Part shown: one piece after another, positions 51,417 through 62,057 of the stretch | Layout of the letters: every line of letters begins with the position of its first letter | Position numbering within the stretch: the first letter of the stretch is position 1 | From: Avibacterium volantium | GTDB lineage: Bacteria; Pseudomonadota; Gammaproteobacteria; Enterobacterales; Pasteurellaceae | Length of the DNA stretch: 64,000 nt | NCBI RefSeq assembly: GCF_900635775.1 | Contig: NZ_LR134167.1 | Coordinates: 839,001-903,000, forward strand | Direction of reading: 5' to 3' | Made by a program: the position numbers and the translations under genes | Notes under the pieces: model-generated | What the model was told of the DNA's origin: nothing | Seen by the model: only the letters and a program-made list of their open reading frames with translations | The model's database searches: none

Positions 51417-52592
51417 ATGGAACAAGCAAAAGTATTTCCAACCATCGGTATTGTCGCAGGTGAAGTTTCTGGCGATATTCTAGGAGGAGGGCTAATGCGT
51501 AGCCTGAAAATCCGTTATCCTAACGCACGTTTTATCGGCATTGCTGGTAAACAAATGTTGGCAGAAGGTTGCGAAACCTTGGTGGATATGGAAGAAATTG
51601 CCGTAATGGGCTTAGCAGAAGTGGTGAAACATTTGCCACGCTTGCTGAAAATTCGCCGCCAAGTGATCGACAAAATGTTGCAAGAAAAGCCCGATGTATT
51701 TATCGGCATCGATGCGCCCGATTTCAATCTTGACATTGAACTTAAACTTAAAGAACAAGGCATCAAAACCATTCATTACGTCAGCCCATCAGTGTGGGCG
51801 TGGCGACAAAATCGCATTCACAAAATTGCACGCGCCACCAACCTTGTTCTCGCATTTTTACCCTTTGAAAAAGTCTTTTACGATCGTTTCAACGTACCTT
51901 GTCGTTTTATTGGACACACAATGGCAGACGCCATTCCGTTAAAACCTGATCGCCTTGCCGCTTGCCAAATGCTTAATATTGATCCACAACAACGCTATTT
52001 AGCGATGCTGGTTGGCAGCCGTGGCTCAGAAGTGGAATTCCTTGCTGAACCTTTCTTGCAAACCGCCTTATTGCTGAAAGAACAATATCCAGACGTGCAA
52101 TTCCTCGTTCCCTTAGTGAATGAAAAACGTCGCCAACAATTTGAACGCATTAAAGCAAAAGTTGCCCCTGATTTACCAATGATCTTGCTTGATGGGCAGG
52201 CTCGCCAAGCGATGATCGCCGCCCAAGCCACCTTGCTTGCTTCAGGCACGGCAGCATTAGAATGTATGCTATGTAAATCGCCAACGGTCGTGGGCTACAA
52301 AATGAAGCCGTTCACTTATTTCCTAGCCAAACGCTTGGTGAAAACCCCTTATATTTCATTACCGAATTTACTGGCGAATGAAATGCTTGTGCCAGAAATG
52401 ATCCAGCAAGATTGCACCGCAGAAAAATTGGTAGAAAAGCTCGCCCCTTATTTTTCCACAGAAGAAAGTGCGGTGCAAAATCGCCACAATTTGGAGCAAC
52501 ACTTTATTGATCTGCATAAAATGATCCAATGCGATGCGGATAAACAAGCCGCCGAAGCAGTGATTGAATTATTGCAAGAGGAAAAACAATGA
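51417..52592 (+). CDS. lpxB: Lipid A disaccharide synthase
   Basis: Membrane-associated GT19 glycosyltransferase joining UDP-diacylglucosamine and lipid X. About 391 residues (E. coli 382). [20 protein letters not shown] at the start, [33 protein letters not shown] and [11 protein letters not shown] prefer ATG 51417 (MEQAKVF). ATG 51402 is also possible, and the GTG at 51387 lies inside the hairpin. Both ATGs have poor ribosome sites. rnhB starts within the stop (ATGA overlap). Confidence 0.96.
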
Positions 52593-53179
52593 GCGAATTT
52601 GTCTATCCTGATTATGAACTGATCGCAGGCGTTGATGAAGTGGGACGTGGGCCTTTAGTGGGCGCAGTGCTCACCGCCGCGGTGATTTTAGATCCTAATA
52701 ATCCCATTGAAGGCTTAACGGACAGTAAAAAACTCTCGCACAAAAAACGCCTAGCCTTAGCCGAAGAAATTAAACAAAAAGCCAAAGCTTGGGCTCTAGG
52801 GCGCGCTGAACCTGAAGAAATTGACGAACTCAATATTTTGCACGCCACAATGTTAGCGATGCAACGTGCAGTCAATCAGCTTAAAATCACCCCTCACTTT
52901 GTGCTAGTGGACGGCAACCGAATTCCCCCATTGCCAATGCCCGCCCAAGCGGTGGTGAAAGGGGACAGCCTTGTGGCAGAAATCAGCGCCGCCTCCATTC
53001 TTGCCAAAGTCGCCCGCGATTTAGAAATGGAAGAGTTGGATAAACGCTATCCCCAATACGCCTTCGCCCAACACAAAGGCTACCCAACAAAATTACATTT
53101 AGAAAAACTGGCAGAACACGGCCCCTTACCCCAACACCGCCGAAGTTTTGCCCCAGTAAGAAAATTGATTACAGAATAA
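52589..53179 (+). CDS. rnhB: Ribonuclease HII
   Basis: Removes ribonucleotides from DNA and RNA primers. 196 residues (E. coli 198). Active-site residues in [14 protein letters not shown] (Asp-Glu-Gly), the second aspartate in VLVDGNRIP and [15 protein letters not shown]. Overlaps lpxB by 4 bases. In E. coli the next gene is dnaE; here a tandem repeat array starts at the stop codon. Confidence 0.98.
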
Positions 53180-53205
53180 AGTGAGGTCGTTTTTCCCAAA
53201 AAATT

Positions 53206-53549
53206 CCACCGCACTTTAAATACAATTTAACGCAAAATAGAATGTGAACTATCGGACAATCAATCCCCTTGTAAATTGCCCGAATGGAAATAAAATTTTT
53301 AGAAAAGTAACGCCTGAACGCAGCGAAGCGAGTATGGGCTTACTTTTCGTCAAAAAAATTTTATTGGAACGAGGAAAAGCAATTTAGTAGGGGTTCCCTT
53401 TTCTTTGCTTCCTTTCTTTTGGGAACGCAAAAGAAAGGAAGTCGCTCAACGAGCGAAACCCGTTATATCAACAAAGAAAAATGCAATCAGCCAAAAGTAA
53501 AAATAAGCAACGACAAAGTGCGGTACTTTTTCAAAAAGTTTTTAAAATC
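53206..53549. repeat. array unit 1 (head type A)
   Basis: 344 bases. Head type A (AATACAATTTAACGCAAAAT, then TCGGACAATCAATCCCC). The 14-bp hairpin is at 53408-53421/53428-53441, and TCGCTC/GAGCGA at 53442-53447/53451-53456. Ends with an inverted uptake-signal junction. Confidence 0.88.
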
Positions 53550-53877
53550 CCACCGCACTTTAAATTTAAAATTAATGTGAAATATCGGGACAATCCCCTT
53601 GTAAATTGCCCGAATGGAAATAAAATTTTTAGAAAAGTAACGCCTGAACGCAGCGAAGCGAGTATGGGCTTACTTTTCGTCAAAAAAATTTTATTGGAAC
53701 GAGGAAAAGCAATTTAGTAGGGGTTCCCTTTTCTTTGCTTCCTTTCTTTTGGGAACGCAAAAGAAAGGAAGTCGCCAACGGCGAAACGCGTTATAGCAAC
53801 AAAGAAAATCACAATCAGCCAAAAGTAAAAATAAGCAACGACAAAGTGCGGTACTTTTTCAAAAAGTTTTTAAAATC
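53550..53877. repeat. array unit 2 (head type B)
   Basis: 328 bases. Head type B (AATTTAAAATTAATGTGAAA, then TCGGGACAATCCCC). The body is almost identical to unit 1 through the 14-bp hairpin, but the small hairpin is TCGCC/GGCGA. Confidence 0.88.
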
Positions 53878-54207
53878 CCACCGCACTTTAAATTAAAAAT
53901 TAAGCGTGAAATATCGGGACAATCCCCTTGTAAATTTCCCGAATGGAAATAAAATTTTTAAAAAAATCACGCCGAGCGAGTGCGAAGCGAACATCAGGCT
54001 GATTTTTCGTAAAGAAAATTTTATTGGAATGAGGAAAAGCAATTTAGTAGGGGTTCTCTTTTCTTTGCTTCCTTTCTTTTGGGAACGCAAAAGAAAGGAA
54101 GTCGGCAACGGCGAAACCCGTTATAACTACAAAGAAAAACGCAATCAGCCAAAAGTAAAAATAAGTAATAACAAAGTGCGGTACTTTTTCAAAAAGTTTT
54201 TAAAATT
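53878..54207. repeat. array unit 3 (head type B, altered stem)
   Basis: 330 bases. Head type B, but the A/T stem is AAAAATCA (53962-53969) with TGATTTTT (54000-54007), differing from the other units while remaining fully paired. The loop sequence also differs (CGAGCGAGTGCGAAGCGAAC). Confidence 0.88.
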
Positions 54208-54550
54208 CCACCGCACTTTAAATACAATTTAATGCAAAATAGATTGTGAACCATCGGATAATCAATCCCCTTGTAAATTGCCCGAATGGAAATAAAATTT
54301 TTAGAAAAGTAACGCCTGAACGCAGCGCAGCGAGTATGGGCTTACTTTTCGTTAAGAAAATTCTGTCGAAATGAGGAAGAGCAATTTGATCGGGGACGCT
54401 TTTCTTTGCTTACGTTCCTTTTGGGAACGCAAAAGAAAGGGAGTCGCCAACGGCGAAACCCGTTATAACAACAAAAAAACCACAATTAGCCAAAAGTAAA
54501 AATAAGTAATAATAAAGTACGATCATATTTTCAAAATCTTTTAAAAAATC
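54208..54550. repeat. array unit 4 (head type A, most diverged)
   Basis: 343 bases. Head type A like unit 1. The long 14-bp hairpin is disrupted: the left arm is TTACGTTCCTTTTG, leaving a short CGTTCC/GGAACG hairpin. The right junction uptake signal is decayed (AAAGTACGATC). Confidence 0.85.
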
Positions 54551-54838
54551 GCACCGCACTTTAAATTTAAAATTAATGTGAAATATCGGGGCAATCCCCT
54601 TGTAAATTGCCCGAATGGAAATAAAATTTTTAGAAAAGTAACGCCTGAACGCAGCGAAGCGAGTATGGGCTTACTTTTCGTCAAAAAAATTTTATTGTAA
54701 TGAGGAAAAGCAATTTAGTAGGGGTTCCCTTTTCTTTGCTTCCTTTCTTTTGGGAACGCAAAAGAAAGGAAGTCGCCAACGGCGAAACCCGTTATAATTA
54801 CAAAGAAAACCGTAATTAACCAAATAATAAACAAAACG
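54551..54838. repeat. array unit 5 (head type B, truncated)
   Basis: About 285 bases. Head type B, nearly identical to unit 2 up to the CGAAACCCGTTATAA stretch, then sequence similarity ends before the transporter ribosome site (CGGAGA at 54855-54860). It lacks the right junction signal. Confidence 0.85.
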
Positions 54839-54865
54839 ACCAAAACCCTAACCACGGAGACCCAA

Positions 54866-56713
54866 ATGCCCTCAATCACCAATATCCCCCTTGCTAGCGT
54901 TGTGATTTTTCTTGCCATCGCTGTACTCTTGTTTATCCACAACAAAATCCGAATGGACGTCATCGCCCTGTTGGTCATGCTTGCTTTTTGTGTGAGTGGG
55001 ATCTTGAGCGTACAGGAAGTCTTTGCAGGCTTCAGCGATCCGAATATTATTTTGATCGCCTTGCTGTTTATTGTGGGGGAAGCCTTGGTGCGCACTGGCG
55101 TAGCCTATCAAGTGAGTGAATGGCTGATGAAAGCGGCGAAAAATAGCGAAACCCGTGTGCTGATTTTAGTGATGTTAGCGGTAGCAGGGTTGGGATCTTT
55201 TATGAGTTCCGTGGGGATTGTGGCAATTTTTATCCCTGTGGTATTGGTGATTTGCCGCCAAATGCACATTTCGCCAAGACGCCTGATGATGCCGTTGAGT
55301 ATGGCTGGGCTAATCAGCGGTATGATGACCTTAATCGCCACTGCACCAAATTTGGTGATTAACGCAGAATTAATCCATCTCACCAAACAGCGTTTTGATT
55401 TCTTTTCCTTCACGCCGATTGGTATTGTGATTTTGTTGCTGGGCATTGTGTATATGCTGGTGGCTCGCCGTTGGTTAGGGCAAGCGGAAAATGAACAAAG
55501 CGAAGGCGTGAATCGTCATTCCATTCAAGATCTGATTGAAGATTATCAATTGCAAGCACGCACCAAACGTTTTGTAGTGCGAACAGGATCGGATTTTATC
55601 GGGCAGCCCTTAGAAGCCTTGCATCTGCGCTCTAATTATGCCTTGAACGTGCTGGCGATTGAGCGTTGGAAGCGTTTTCGTCCAAGATTTCTAGCTGATT
55701 CCTTAGGGAAAATCGAAATTCGTGAAAAGGATATTTTGCTGATTGATTGCGCTGATCCTGAGCTAGATATTAATGAATTTTGCCAACAACATCAGCTTGA
55801 GCCAACGGAATTGCGTCCTTACCACTTTGAACAACAAGCTAAGTTTATGGGAATGGTGGAAATCACGCCAATTCCTGAAGGGGATTATCTCGGCAAAACA
55901 GTGGCAGAAATTGGCTTTCGTTCACGTTTTGGTTTAAATGTGGTGGGCATTAAGCGTAATAATGAGATTTTGACGGGGAGTTTGATTGAACAGCCATTAA
56001 AGATTGGTGATTTACTGTTGGTGGTCGGATCGTGGAAATTGATCCAAGCAATGCGTAATAAAACAAAAGCCTTTTTCGTACTCGATTATCCTGCGGAAAT
56101 TGAACGCGCCGCGCCCGCGCAAAGCCAAGCGCCTTATGCCATTTTATCCATTGTCACGATGGTGGCATTAATGGTAACAGGCGTTGTGCCGAATGTGGTT
56201 GCTGCCCTGATCGCCTGTTTAATGTTAGCGAAATTCCGCTGCGTTGATGCGAAAAGCGCTTATGCGTCCATTCATTGGTCGAGCTTAATTTTAATTGTGG
56301 GAATGATGCCATTTTCCACCGCACTACAAAAAACAGGCGGGATTAATTTAATCGTAGAATTTATGATTAACACCGTAGGGGGAATGGGTAAACATTGGAT
56401 TTTAATCAGCTTGTTTACACTGACTGCGGTGATTGGTCTGTTTATTTCTAACACCGCCACTGCGATTTTAATGGCGCCGATAGCTATCACAATGGCGCAG
56501 CATTTGCAGCTTTCCCCATTGCCTTTTGCAATGACGGTAGCGATTGCTTCGTCCGCCGCCTTTATGACGCCGATTTCTTCGCCAGTAAACACAATGGTGC
56601 TGGGCGCAGGGAATTATAAATTTGGCGATTTCGTCAAAATTGGCGTGCCTTTTACTTTGCTGGTTATGTTGGCAACGGTGTTTCTTGTTCCAGTATTCTT
56701 TCCGTTTAAATAA
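54866..56713 (+). CDS. SLC13/DASS-type transporter with TrkA-C domains
   Basis: Inner-membrane carrier of the anion-sodium symporter superfamily. 615 residues, similar in layout to E. coli YfbS. Membrane helices in the first ~200 residues (DPNIILIALLFIVGEALVRTG; then SSVGIVAIFIPVVLVI), two cytoplasmic RCK_C/TrkA-C-type regulatory domains at about residues 220-400 (IGQPLEALHLRSNYALNVLA and LGKTVAEIGFRSRFGLNVVG), then more helices with SNTATAILMAPIAI. Substrate unknown; dicarboxylate or sulfate are typical of relatives. Start ATG 54866. It begins 28 bases after the repeat array, and ynbA follows 9 bases after its stop. Confidence 0.88.
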   Translation: MPSITNIPLASVVIFLAIAVLLFIHNKIRMDVIALLVMLAFCVSGILSVQEVFAGFSDPNIILIALLFIVGEALVRTGVAYQVSEWLMKAAKNSETRVLILVMLAVAGLGSFMSSVGIVAIFIPVVLVICRQMHISPRRLMMPLSMAGLISGMMTLIATAPNLVINAELIHLTKQRFDFFSFTPIGIVILLLGIVYMLVARRWLGQAENEQSEGVNRHSIQDLIEDYQLQARTKRFVVRTGSDFIGQPLEALHLRSNYALNVLAIERWKRFRPRFLADSLGKIEIREKDILLIDCADPELDINEFCQQHQLEPTELRPYHFEQQAKFMGMVEITPIPEGDYLGKTVAEIGFRSRFGLNVVGIKRNNEILTGSLIEQPLKIGDLLLVVGSWKLIQAMRNKTKAFFVLDYPAEIERAAPAQSQAPYAILSIVTMVALMVTGVVPNVVAALIACLMLAKFRCVDAKSAYASIHWSSLILIVGMMPFSTALQKTGGINLIVEFMINTVGGMGKHWILISLFTLTAVIGLFISNTATAILMAPIAITMAQHLQLSPLPFAMTVAIASSAAFMTPISSPVNTMVLGAGNYKFGDFVKIGVPFTLLVMLATVFLVPVFFPFK

Positions 56714-61091: not shown

Positions 61092-62057
61092 ATGAATAAT
61101 GCTAAGAAAGTTTTTAATGAAGGCTGGAAATTTTATAAAAAGGGTAATTTAGATGCTGCGATAGAGGCTTGGTCAAGTATAACTCGTGAGGATGATAGGG
61201 AATATTATGCAAAGAGTCGTTTGGGCTTAGGTCTTTTATATAAAAAAGCGGATGAGCAAGAAAAAGCCATAGAAGCTTGGTTAAGTATAACTCGTGAAGA
61301 TAATAGGGAAATTTATGCAGGTAGTCGTTTAAATTTAGGTCTTTTATATAAAGAAATTAATAATCAAGAGAAAGCGATAGAAACTTGGTCAAATATAAGT
61401 TGTGAAGATAGTAAGGAGGCTTATGCGAAGAGTCGTTTTAATTTAGGTAATTTGTATAAAAATAATGGTGAAAGAGAAAAAGCAATAGAGGCTTGGTCAA
61501 GTATAACTCGTGAAGATGATAGAGAAATTTATGCAGATAGTCGTTTAAATTTAGGTCTTTTATATAAAGAAATTAATAATCAAGAGAAAGCGATAGAAAC
61601 TTGGTCAAGCATAAGTTGTGAAGATAGTAAGGAGGTTTATGCGAAGAGCCGTTTTAATTTAGGTCTTTTATATAAAGAAATTAATAATCAAGAGAAAGCG
61701 ATAGAAACTTGGTCAAACATAAGTTGTGAAGATAGTAAGGAGGTTTATGCGAAGAGCCATTTTAATTTAGGTGATTTATATAAAAATAATAATGAGGATA
61801 AAAAAGCAAAACAATGTTATAAAAATGTAATTAAAGTTGGGGATAGAGCTTTTGTTTATCAAGCTAATATCTTTTTAAGAATTTTAGAAATAAGTTCTGG
61901 TAATAATAAAGAGGAACTGGGAGAGTTATTTAAAAAAATAGATTTGATACTTGGAAATTTGTTTGTATATCCAAATAGGGGTTTAGTGGATTGTTCAGAA
62001 GTCGCTCACTATACTCGAGCTTCGACAGCACTTCTTTTATTGGAAAAAGATAAGTAA
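61092..62057 (+). CDS. TPR/Sel1-like repeat protein, N-terminal part of a gene split by a stop
   Basis: 321 residues. Seven tandem repeats of 36 residues with pattern KAIE(A/T)WSxI...YAxSRxNLGLLYK, matching TPR-type helix pairs. At DNA level the repeats have a period of 108 bp and some copies are nearly identical, e.g. from 61361, 61577 and 61685. After the repeats comes a short helical linker and EVAHYTRASTALLLLEKDK, then TAA at 62055. The frame continues past this stop into the next ORF. ATG 61092 follows AGGTGA. AT-rich codon use (many ATA, AAT, TTA) and absence of uptake signals differ from the neighbours, suggesting acquisition. No signal peptide; likely cytoplasmic. Confidence 0.75.
   Translation: MNNAKKVFNEGWKFYKKGNLDAAIEAWSSITREDDREYYAKSRLGLGLLYKKADEQEKAIEAWLSITREDNREIYAGSRLNLGLLYKEINNQEKAIETWSNISCEDSKEAYAKSRFNLGNLYKNNGEREKAIEAWSSITREDDREIYADSRLNLGLLYKEINNQEKAIETWSSISCEDSKEVYAKSRFNLGLLYKEINNQEKAIETWSNISCEDSKEVYAKSHFNLGDLYKNNNEDKKAKQCYKNVIKVGDRAFVYQANIFLRILEISSGNNKEELGELFKKIDLILGNLFVYPNRGLVDCSEVAHYTRASTALLLLEKDK

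Follow-up and report, generated by a model that had tools for sequence, protein, structure and literature searches.

The gap between rnhB and a transporter gene in Avibacterium volantium is occupied by five tandem copies of what is probably a mobile, non-coding, strand-specific and structured element resembling BIMEs, one that would spread as a divergent pair, appears to have been multiplied here by tandem duplication and probably acts as RNA. The fold of this element and the family that shares it are very likely real, and at the centre of the fold lies a predicted triple helix. Long natural triple helices are, to our knowledge, rare and come mostly from eukaryotic and viral RNAs.

In the window, by which we mean the whole stretch of 64,000 nucleotides that was analysed, the + strand carries rnhB at 52589-53179 and an ORF for a transporter at 54866-56713, names that come from an initial annotation of the same DNA and from the translations. 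That annotation had described a five-copy tandem array with high identity among units 1, 2 and 5, and both descriptions are borne out. A repeat search places five direct repeats in register in the gap, their cores extending over 53261-54809 with spacings of 330, 329, 343 and 329, and Tandem Repeats Finder reports the same interval with a period of 330, 4.7 copies and 87% matches. Core identity is 98.2% for units 1 and 2, 96.8% for 1 and 5 and 97.2% for 2 and 5, compared with 84.2-90.5% for the remaining seven pairs. The unit of about 330 bp that had been taken as the element is a real repeat, but it is a composite: each unit joins a dispersed element of ~205-220 nt to ~110 nt of locus-specific junction (Table), and the junction is a terminator-like pair of copies of AAGTGCGGT, which we take to be the uptake signal. 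This sequence occurs three times in 53180-54865 and its complement five times. Inverted uptake signals had been noted at most junctions, and an intact inverted pair is indeed present in three of the four inter-unit junctions, but these signals sit in the junction, outside the dispersed core. A single intact copy is left in the fourth junction (54553), and unit 5 has no such pair and no junction 3′ of its core. Elsewhere in the window, 61158-61790 looks like coding sequence, probably for a repeat protein, and contains tandem repeats of ~108 bp (5.8 copies with 80% matches).

Table. Positions in the window of the array and of the predicted structural parts of its reference copy
Feature	Position	Strand	Remarks
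rnhB-side leader of array	53181-53260	+	one intact uptake signal at 53208, complement orientation
Element core, unit 1	53261-53480	+	model R1 match 53263-53467, 225.8 bits
Junction 1	53481-53590	+	intact inverted uptake-signal pair 53515-53561
Element core, unit 2 (reference copy)	53591-53808	+	model R1 match 53593-53795, 229.4 bits
Junction 2	53809-53919	+	intact inverted uptake-signal pair 53843-53889
Element core, unit 3	53920-54138	+	model R1 match 53922-54125, 209.3 bits
Junction 3	54139-54262	+	intact inverted uptake-signal pair 54173-54219
Element core, unit 4	54263-54479	+	model R1 match 54265-54467, 198.3 bits; pseudoknot-1 strands mismatched
Junction 4	54480-54591	+	decayed uptake-signal pair
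Element core, unit 5	54592-54809	+	model R1 match 54594-54796, 231.2 bits
Unit 2 domain A, long imperfect hairpin, CCCC 53595-53598 to GGGG 53720-53723	53595-53723	+	covariation
Unit 2 pseudoknot-1 strand a (TTCC), partner the B-hairpin loop	53724-53727	+	
Unit 2 third strand L1 (CTTTTCTTTG), parallel-matched to purine strand 53758-53767	53728-53737	+	
Unit 2 B hairpin, 14-bp stem 53738-53751 / 53758-53771, loop 53752-53757	53738-53771	+	
Unit 2 3′ mini-pseudoknot, GCC/GGC stem, loop AAC 53777-53779 with GTT 53790-53792	53774-53792	+	weaker

The intact uptake-signal pairs in three of four junctions are what would be expected if the array served DNA uptake or transcription termination, its hairpins having been amplified for their own sake. 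We consider this very improbable: the part that is dispersed and conserved is the core and not the junction, the family is present far outside the Pasteurellaceae, and a scan of 53100-54900 for terminator-like sites returned four against 2.4 expected, every one on the - strand and none on the + strand of the array.

To judge from covariation, one strand of the element is conserved to fold into a long 5′ hairpin (domain A) followed by an H-type pseudoknot (domain B), with a weaker 3′ mini-pseudoknot. For the core of unit 2 the folding energy is -75.3 kcal/mol, whereas 200 shuffles average -48.25 (sd 4.45), which gives a z of -6.1; the element core lies about 6 sd below its shuffles on both strands. 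The strong hairpins first noted in each unit are retained and are now read as parts of pseudoknots, one of them with a covarying triple helix. The structure was drawn on an alignment of 40 sequences, comprising 14 of the 24 own-genome copies together with 26 of the 29 taken from other genomes of the family, the three sequences L065, L066 and L068 having been omitted as odd. In the hand-drawn structure 93.9% of cells are paired, against 81.9% after shuffling and ~55% when slid by one column, a percentage that leans favourable because the structure was derived from those same 40 sequences. Doubly changed pairs number 30 of 56 against 20.3 shuffled, and further pair types, one of five covariation measures, show no excess (62 against 60.9). 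RNAalifold recovered domain A and the B stem unaided, and 29 of its 51 pairs show changes on both sides.

The two pseudoknots differ in strength. In pseudoknot 1, the four nucleotides that follow domain A form a helix with the B-hairpin loop; double-sided change is seen in all four pairs (in 8, 11, 32 and 7 sequences among 57 B domains from the family and the class), and the helix is fully paired in 75 of 135 domains, against a shuffled mean of 14.8 and maximum of 26, the shuffle controls for pairing and for the triplex alike taking no account of sequence relatedness. In pseudoknot 2 the loop of the mini-hairpin pairs downstream, as AAC/GTT in Avibacterium and ATC/GAT in many others. Its summed helix over 121 parsed tails is 388 against 325 shuffled (maximum 348), and a helix of 4 bp is attained in 37 of these tails, against 22.7 after shuffling (maximum 33); 70.9% of cells pair in alignment A2, a figure that partly reflects misalignment, and the support is weaker than for pseudoknot 1. 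Parts of the fold are broken in units 3 and 4 and in some other copies.

Between the two strands of pseudoknot 1 lies L1, a pyrimidine loop of ~10 nt. The first loop of an H-type pseudoknot occupies the stem's deep groove, and L1 can be matched in parallel to the purine strand of the B stem, as in CTTTTCTTTG / CAAAAGAAAG, CTTCTCTTTG / CAAGAGAAAG and CTTTCTTTTG / CAAAGAAAAG. The match was measured in 136 distinct B domains obtained from 230 matches by dropping 42 that overlapped, four with short stems and one without a linker, and by merging identical sequences. U.A or C.G combinations occupy 1009 of 1088 positions, whereas 2000 shuffles gave a mean of 883 (sd 9.3) and a maximum of 916; a perfect third strand is present in 93 of the 136 domains, and in no shuffle did that number exceed 49. 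Of the 77 domains whose purine strand is variant, 40 have a perfect third strand of their own, and none is perfect when the majority third strand is substituted. Where a T interrupts the purine strand, the third strand carries G in nine of 11 distinct combinations, several of them from related genomes and one non-homologous row being omitted from the count; G.T-A is the classical parallel triplet at a T interruption. C interruptions of the purine strand follow no clear third-strand rule. A later set was found with a second model, R2, which was built from the first set and contains no relation between L1 and the stem. Among its 61 usable distinct domains 39 have a perfect third strand, against 16.7 after shuffling (maximum 23), with the register optimised across a few offsets for data and shuffles alike. 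Rows in which L1 is poorly matched or unmatched occur in both sets.

By covariation only, then, L1 and the B stem are predicted to form about eight consecutive U.A-U/C.G-C base triples. The domain shows both marks of a triplex-bearing H-type pseudoknot, namely the pairing of the loop with a distant strand and, again from covariation, the third-strand match. Major-groove triplexes of this kind occur in the pseudoknots of the SAM-II and preQ1-II riboswitches and of telomerase RNA, and triplexes are also found in MALAT1/ENE. These pseudoknots place a loop rich in pyrimidines within the deep groove of their stem, as is predicted for the element; the element differs in having about eight consecutive covarying triples, in being dispersed and multi-copy, and in that no recurrent downstream gene was seen. 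Such a run of covarying triples in a multi-copy element offers many natural variants from which the triplex code can be read, including the recurrent G at T interruptions.

It is important to consider which strand, and which kind of molecule, the third strand follows. The two strands of the stem disagree at 20 positions; L1 matches the 3′ strand at 14 of these, the complement of the 5′ strand at four and neither at two. Since L1 follows the 3′ strand in most of these cases, a single-stranded fold is favoured, and duplex H-DNA is disfavoured as an explanation. G.T combinations exceed A.C by 35 to 11 in the B stems and by 24 to 10 in domain A, which marks the strand as drawn as the functional one. 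A further feature of the Avibacterium copies is a 3′ tail, CAAAGAAAA (window 53797-53808; at the same place in most own-genome copies), which is Watson-Crick complementary to L1. Pairing of this tail with L1 would compete with the triplex, possibly as a switch.

The element is far from confined to this locus. Unit 2 gives 52 BLAST matches in its own 2.23-Mb genome, and the part that recurs outside the array corresponds mainly to unit positions ~66-282. Genome-wide, 24 copies were delimited and aligned; besides the five that form the array there are 19, spread over eight stretches elsewhere (L031-L038), and partial copies consisting of the B half are present as well. The array is not a product of chance, because this core recurs elsewhere in the genome. 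There is a second array at L033:4356-6034, with four tandem copies and one inverted copy, between genes that from their translations we take to be gyrA-like and ubiG-like. An insert of ~100 nt is found in domain A of two of the 19 non-array copies (L034:2802-3121 and L037:2573-2890); it is hairpin-like, has its own inverted ends and lies within the 3′ arm, and such an insert also occurs in the rnhB-locus copies of the relatives G024, G025 and G028. A spacing of ~5 kb between some copies had raised the suspicion of rRNA or tRNA flanks; none were found in the eight stretches.

Beyond its own genome, the element is, by the searches made, widespread, and many genomes of the class have several dispersed copies of it. 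The tallies that follow are lower bounds, with 5-17 candidates scored per genome and only rough model E-values. BLAST finds it in at least 51 of 140 Pasteurellaceae genomes; the covariance model R1 finds it in at least 111 of these (30 of 43 genera) and, in a class sample of 369 genomes, in at least 86, which represent 70 of 272 genera. R2, which describes domain B only, has matches in at least 96 genomes from a phylum sample of 398; 50 of these belong to the class, and the other 46, with weaker scores, do not. Copies are dispersed through the genome, the family and the class, and an outcome that would have counted against the initial annotation, a lack of homologous units elsewhere, did not arise. 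Far from the main host range, the motif occurs at six places in a plasmid of the fusobacterium Ilyobacter polytropus (NC_014633.1, L261), and at the one place inspected L1 matches the stem. With the sequence of a single relative (L199) as query, four plasmid records matched and none of 50,697 phage records did. Domain B also appears with the exact B-type pattern in three IMG/VR viral contigs (L283:10238-10319, L284:4459-4540 and L285:2042-2123), near phage-like genes; these contigs may be prophage edges.

The history of the array can be approached through the same locus in relatives. In place of the five full copies at rnhB in the present genome, G023, G025 and G028 have two each and G024 and G027 one each, with one additional B half in G023 and two in G025. 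Since five of six sister Avibacterium genomes carry one or two full copies in the orthologous gap, the array is, on this comparison, an ordinary local amplification of a single element copy, in keeping with the earlier suggestion that an intergenic element had been amplified. The single copy in G024 has a loop insert and is shared with a contig of A. endocarditidis that seems to be the same sequence. In the stretch of G026 that was analysed, neither the element nor the transporter start was found. Junction-like sequence lies directly 3′ of rnhB in all six sister genomes and in A. endocarditidis, whose RnhB is 97% identical; among 80 named rnhB loci, within the stretches covered, a copy is present only in A. 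endocarditidis. In the simplest history one copy would have come to lie beside the rnhB terminator, after which terminator and element would have been duplicated in tandem through unequal recombination.

Tandem repeats of 330 bp misassemble easily, and the array might for that reason be suspected as an artefact, or its hairpins as products of chance. Neither suspicion has more than a minimal probability in our view: the unit cores differ by up to 16%, tandem copies are also found in G023, G025 and G028 and at a second locus of the own genome, and chance hairpins are excluded by the covariation.

How the element moves is suggested by the arrangement of neighbouring copies. Among 53 pairs of neighbours within 1.5 kb, 36 are divergent, with their 5′ ends facing, 17 are tandem and none is convergent; all 14 tandem neighbours less than 500 bp apart are in Avibacterium genomes. 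By eye, the divergent pairs of the own genome combine two distinguishable subtypes, and those at 1298k, 2123k and 2132k have a spacer sequence in common. In four other genomes units of ~550-890 bp recur with 77-87% mutual identity, some as full-length inverted repeats, and their similarity stops near the outer 3′ ends. The element would thus spread as a non-autonomous insertion, with the divergent pair as the usual moving unit, as in BIMEs, and with a putative mobilising enzyme as the driver. Mobility as a divergent-pair unit is, on these arrangements, likely. No target-site duplication was seen by eye at 40 unit ends and no clean empty site was found, the ilvC-ilvY and dapB loci having been rearranged by other insertions. 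A RAYT/IS200 partner was considered and rejected, there being no copy of the element in 20 stretches around Pasteurellaceae Y1_Tnp genes; a Y1_Tnp match is likewise absent from copy-rich genomes of the family such as G010 (15 matches). Three further observations concern genes near copies or near such enzymes. A divergent pair at L193:563-1483 surrounds a 306-aa ORF, and a pair at L281:978-1640 lies beside a 220-aa ORF with what we take to be an FRG-like start. Y1_Tnp-type genes are found in several Pasteurellaceae genomes (L288, L291 and L294), where their neighbours, from the translations, are presumably histidine-biosynthesis-like genes.

The folded molecule could be RNA or single-stranded DNA. 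Single copies between co-directional genes are in the sense orientation in 16 of 22 cases and antisense in six, a small bias (one-sided binomial 0.026, with a crude ORF finder). In our reading the fold would act as RNA, and in the simplest form of this it would be a plug in untranslated RNA that resists nucleases or polymerase; such a function as a stable plug is plausible, although we would not put it at an even chance. A somewhat unlikely alternative is that the fold works as single-stranded DNA, providing inverted structured ends for a recombinase or HUH-type enzyme in the manner of integron attC sites or IS200/IS605 ends, and that transcription is incidental. This would account for the divergent pairs with their 3′ ends outward, for the similarity of the recurring units stopping near those ends and for the ORF flanked by some pairs (L193), and an excess of G.T over A.C is expected from folding of single-stranded DNA too. 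No enzyme was found, however, with none of the 20 stretches around Y1_Tnp genes holding a copy, and attC or IS200/IS605 ends are not known to carry a long C.G-C/U.A-U triplex and two pseudoknots.

An RNA function need not be exercised in cis. The copies might be small RNA genes acting in trans, their dose raised by the array, and the strong structure on one strand, a match of the Rfam sRNA family AaHKsRNA22 to the insert of one Pasteurellaceae copy and a set of promoter-like sites could be cited in favour. There are nine such sites in 53100-54900 against 3.5 expected, five of them at the identical position in every core. These matches are weak, however, at nine of 12 bases, copy number and position vary widely, and copies are found in all gene arrangements, so that we judge a trans-acting role improbable. 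The plug in untranslated RNA remains the reading we prefer at the RNA level, and the direction of the original proposal, a structured RNA or a MITE-like passenger, is supported.

The element can be set against several known systems. No Rfam family fits the window copies in a search up to E 10 (best E 0.0014, 29 bits against a cut-off of 91), and in the accessible text of the open-access literature we recognised no published description of it. REPs are characterised by a length of 20-40 bp and GTAG or CGTC tags (PMC3733652). Like REPs and BIMEs, the element is intergenic and dispersed, occurs as inverted pairs and tandem arrays and contains imperfect hairpins, and with its divergent pairs, its lack of convergent ones and its recurring palindromic units it has the composite inverted arrangement of BIMEs. 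Unlike REPs, it is ~205-220 nt long and has pseudoknots and a predicted triplex, no RAYT link was found, and by eye no GTAG or CGTC tag is conserved at the hairpin foot in the family alignment. MITEs are small, non-coding, multi-copy, intergenic and structured (PMC10969869), all of which they share with the element; it stands apart in its conserved single-strand fold with triples and in that no target duplication was seen by eye and no parent transposase was found. Pam-1 of Pasteurella multocida is 155 bp long, present in 12 copies, strongly structured and contains uptake sequences (Cozzuto et al. 2008, PMC2267715). P. multocida also carries the present element, and Pam-1 may be an earlier, per-species sighting of it; the comparison is by description only, and the accessible text on Pam-1 describes no pseudoknot or triplex (PMC2267715).

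A final comparison concerns the TwoAYGGAY RNA motif (RF01731), listed in Weinberg et al. 2010 (PMC2864571). Its covariance model has no match in the window copies at the gathering score or E 10, and none in the own genome. In several relatives, as at five of the first six loci, the motif lies within domain A just 5′ of domain B. Thirty TwoAYGGAY loci were drawn from a 339-genome class sample, and by eye domain B follows 3′ on the same strand within 100 nt at 18 of them (12 of 20 genomes), whereas 12 gave no domain B match, one of them being cut off at a contig end; the motif is therefore associated with the element and not identical to it. TwoAYGGAY covers only the tip of domain A, and domain B and the triplex fall outside its model. 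A wider reading, which we offer tentatively and hold to be nearly but not quite an even bet, is of a superfamily of selfish elements, present in one proteobacterial class or more, that would need a long triple-helix pseudoknot of RNA (or single-stranded DNA) at each outward 3′ end in order to move or persist, and in which TwoAYGGAY-like motifs would be exchangeable tips of the 5′ domain. The element would in that case bring unexplained repeats and an orphan RNA motif together as one family. It also opens to test what large intergenic repeats of bacteria do and how they spread.

As for other Rfam matches in relatives, that of AaHKsRNA22 lies at L046:512-613, inside a Pasteurellaceae copy of the element spanning 409-690.
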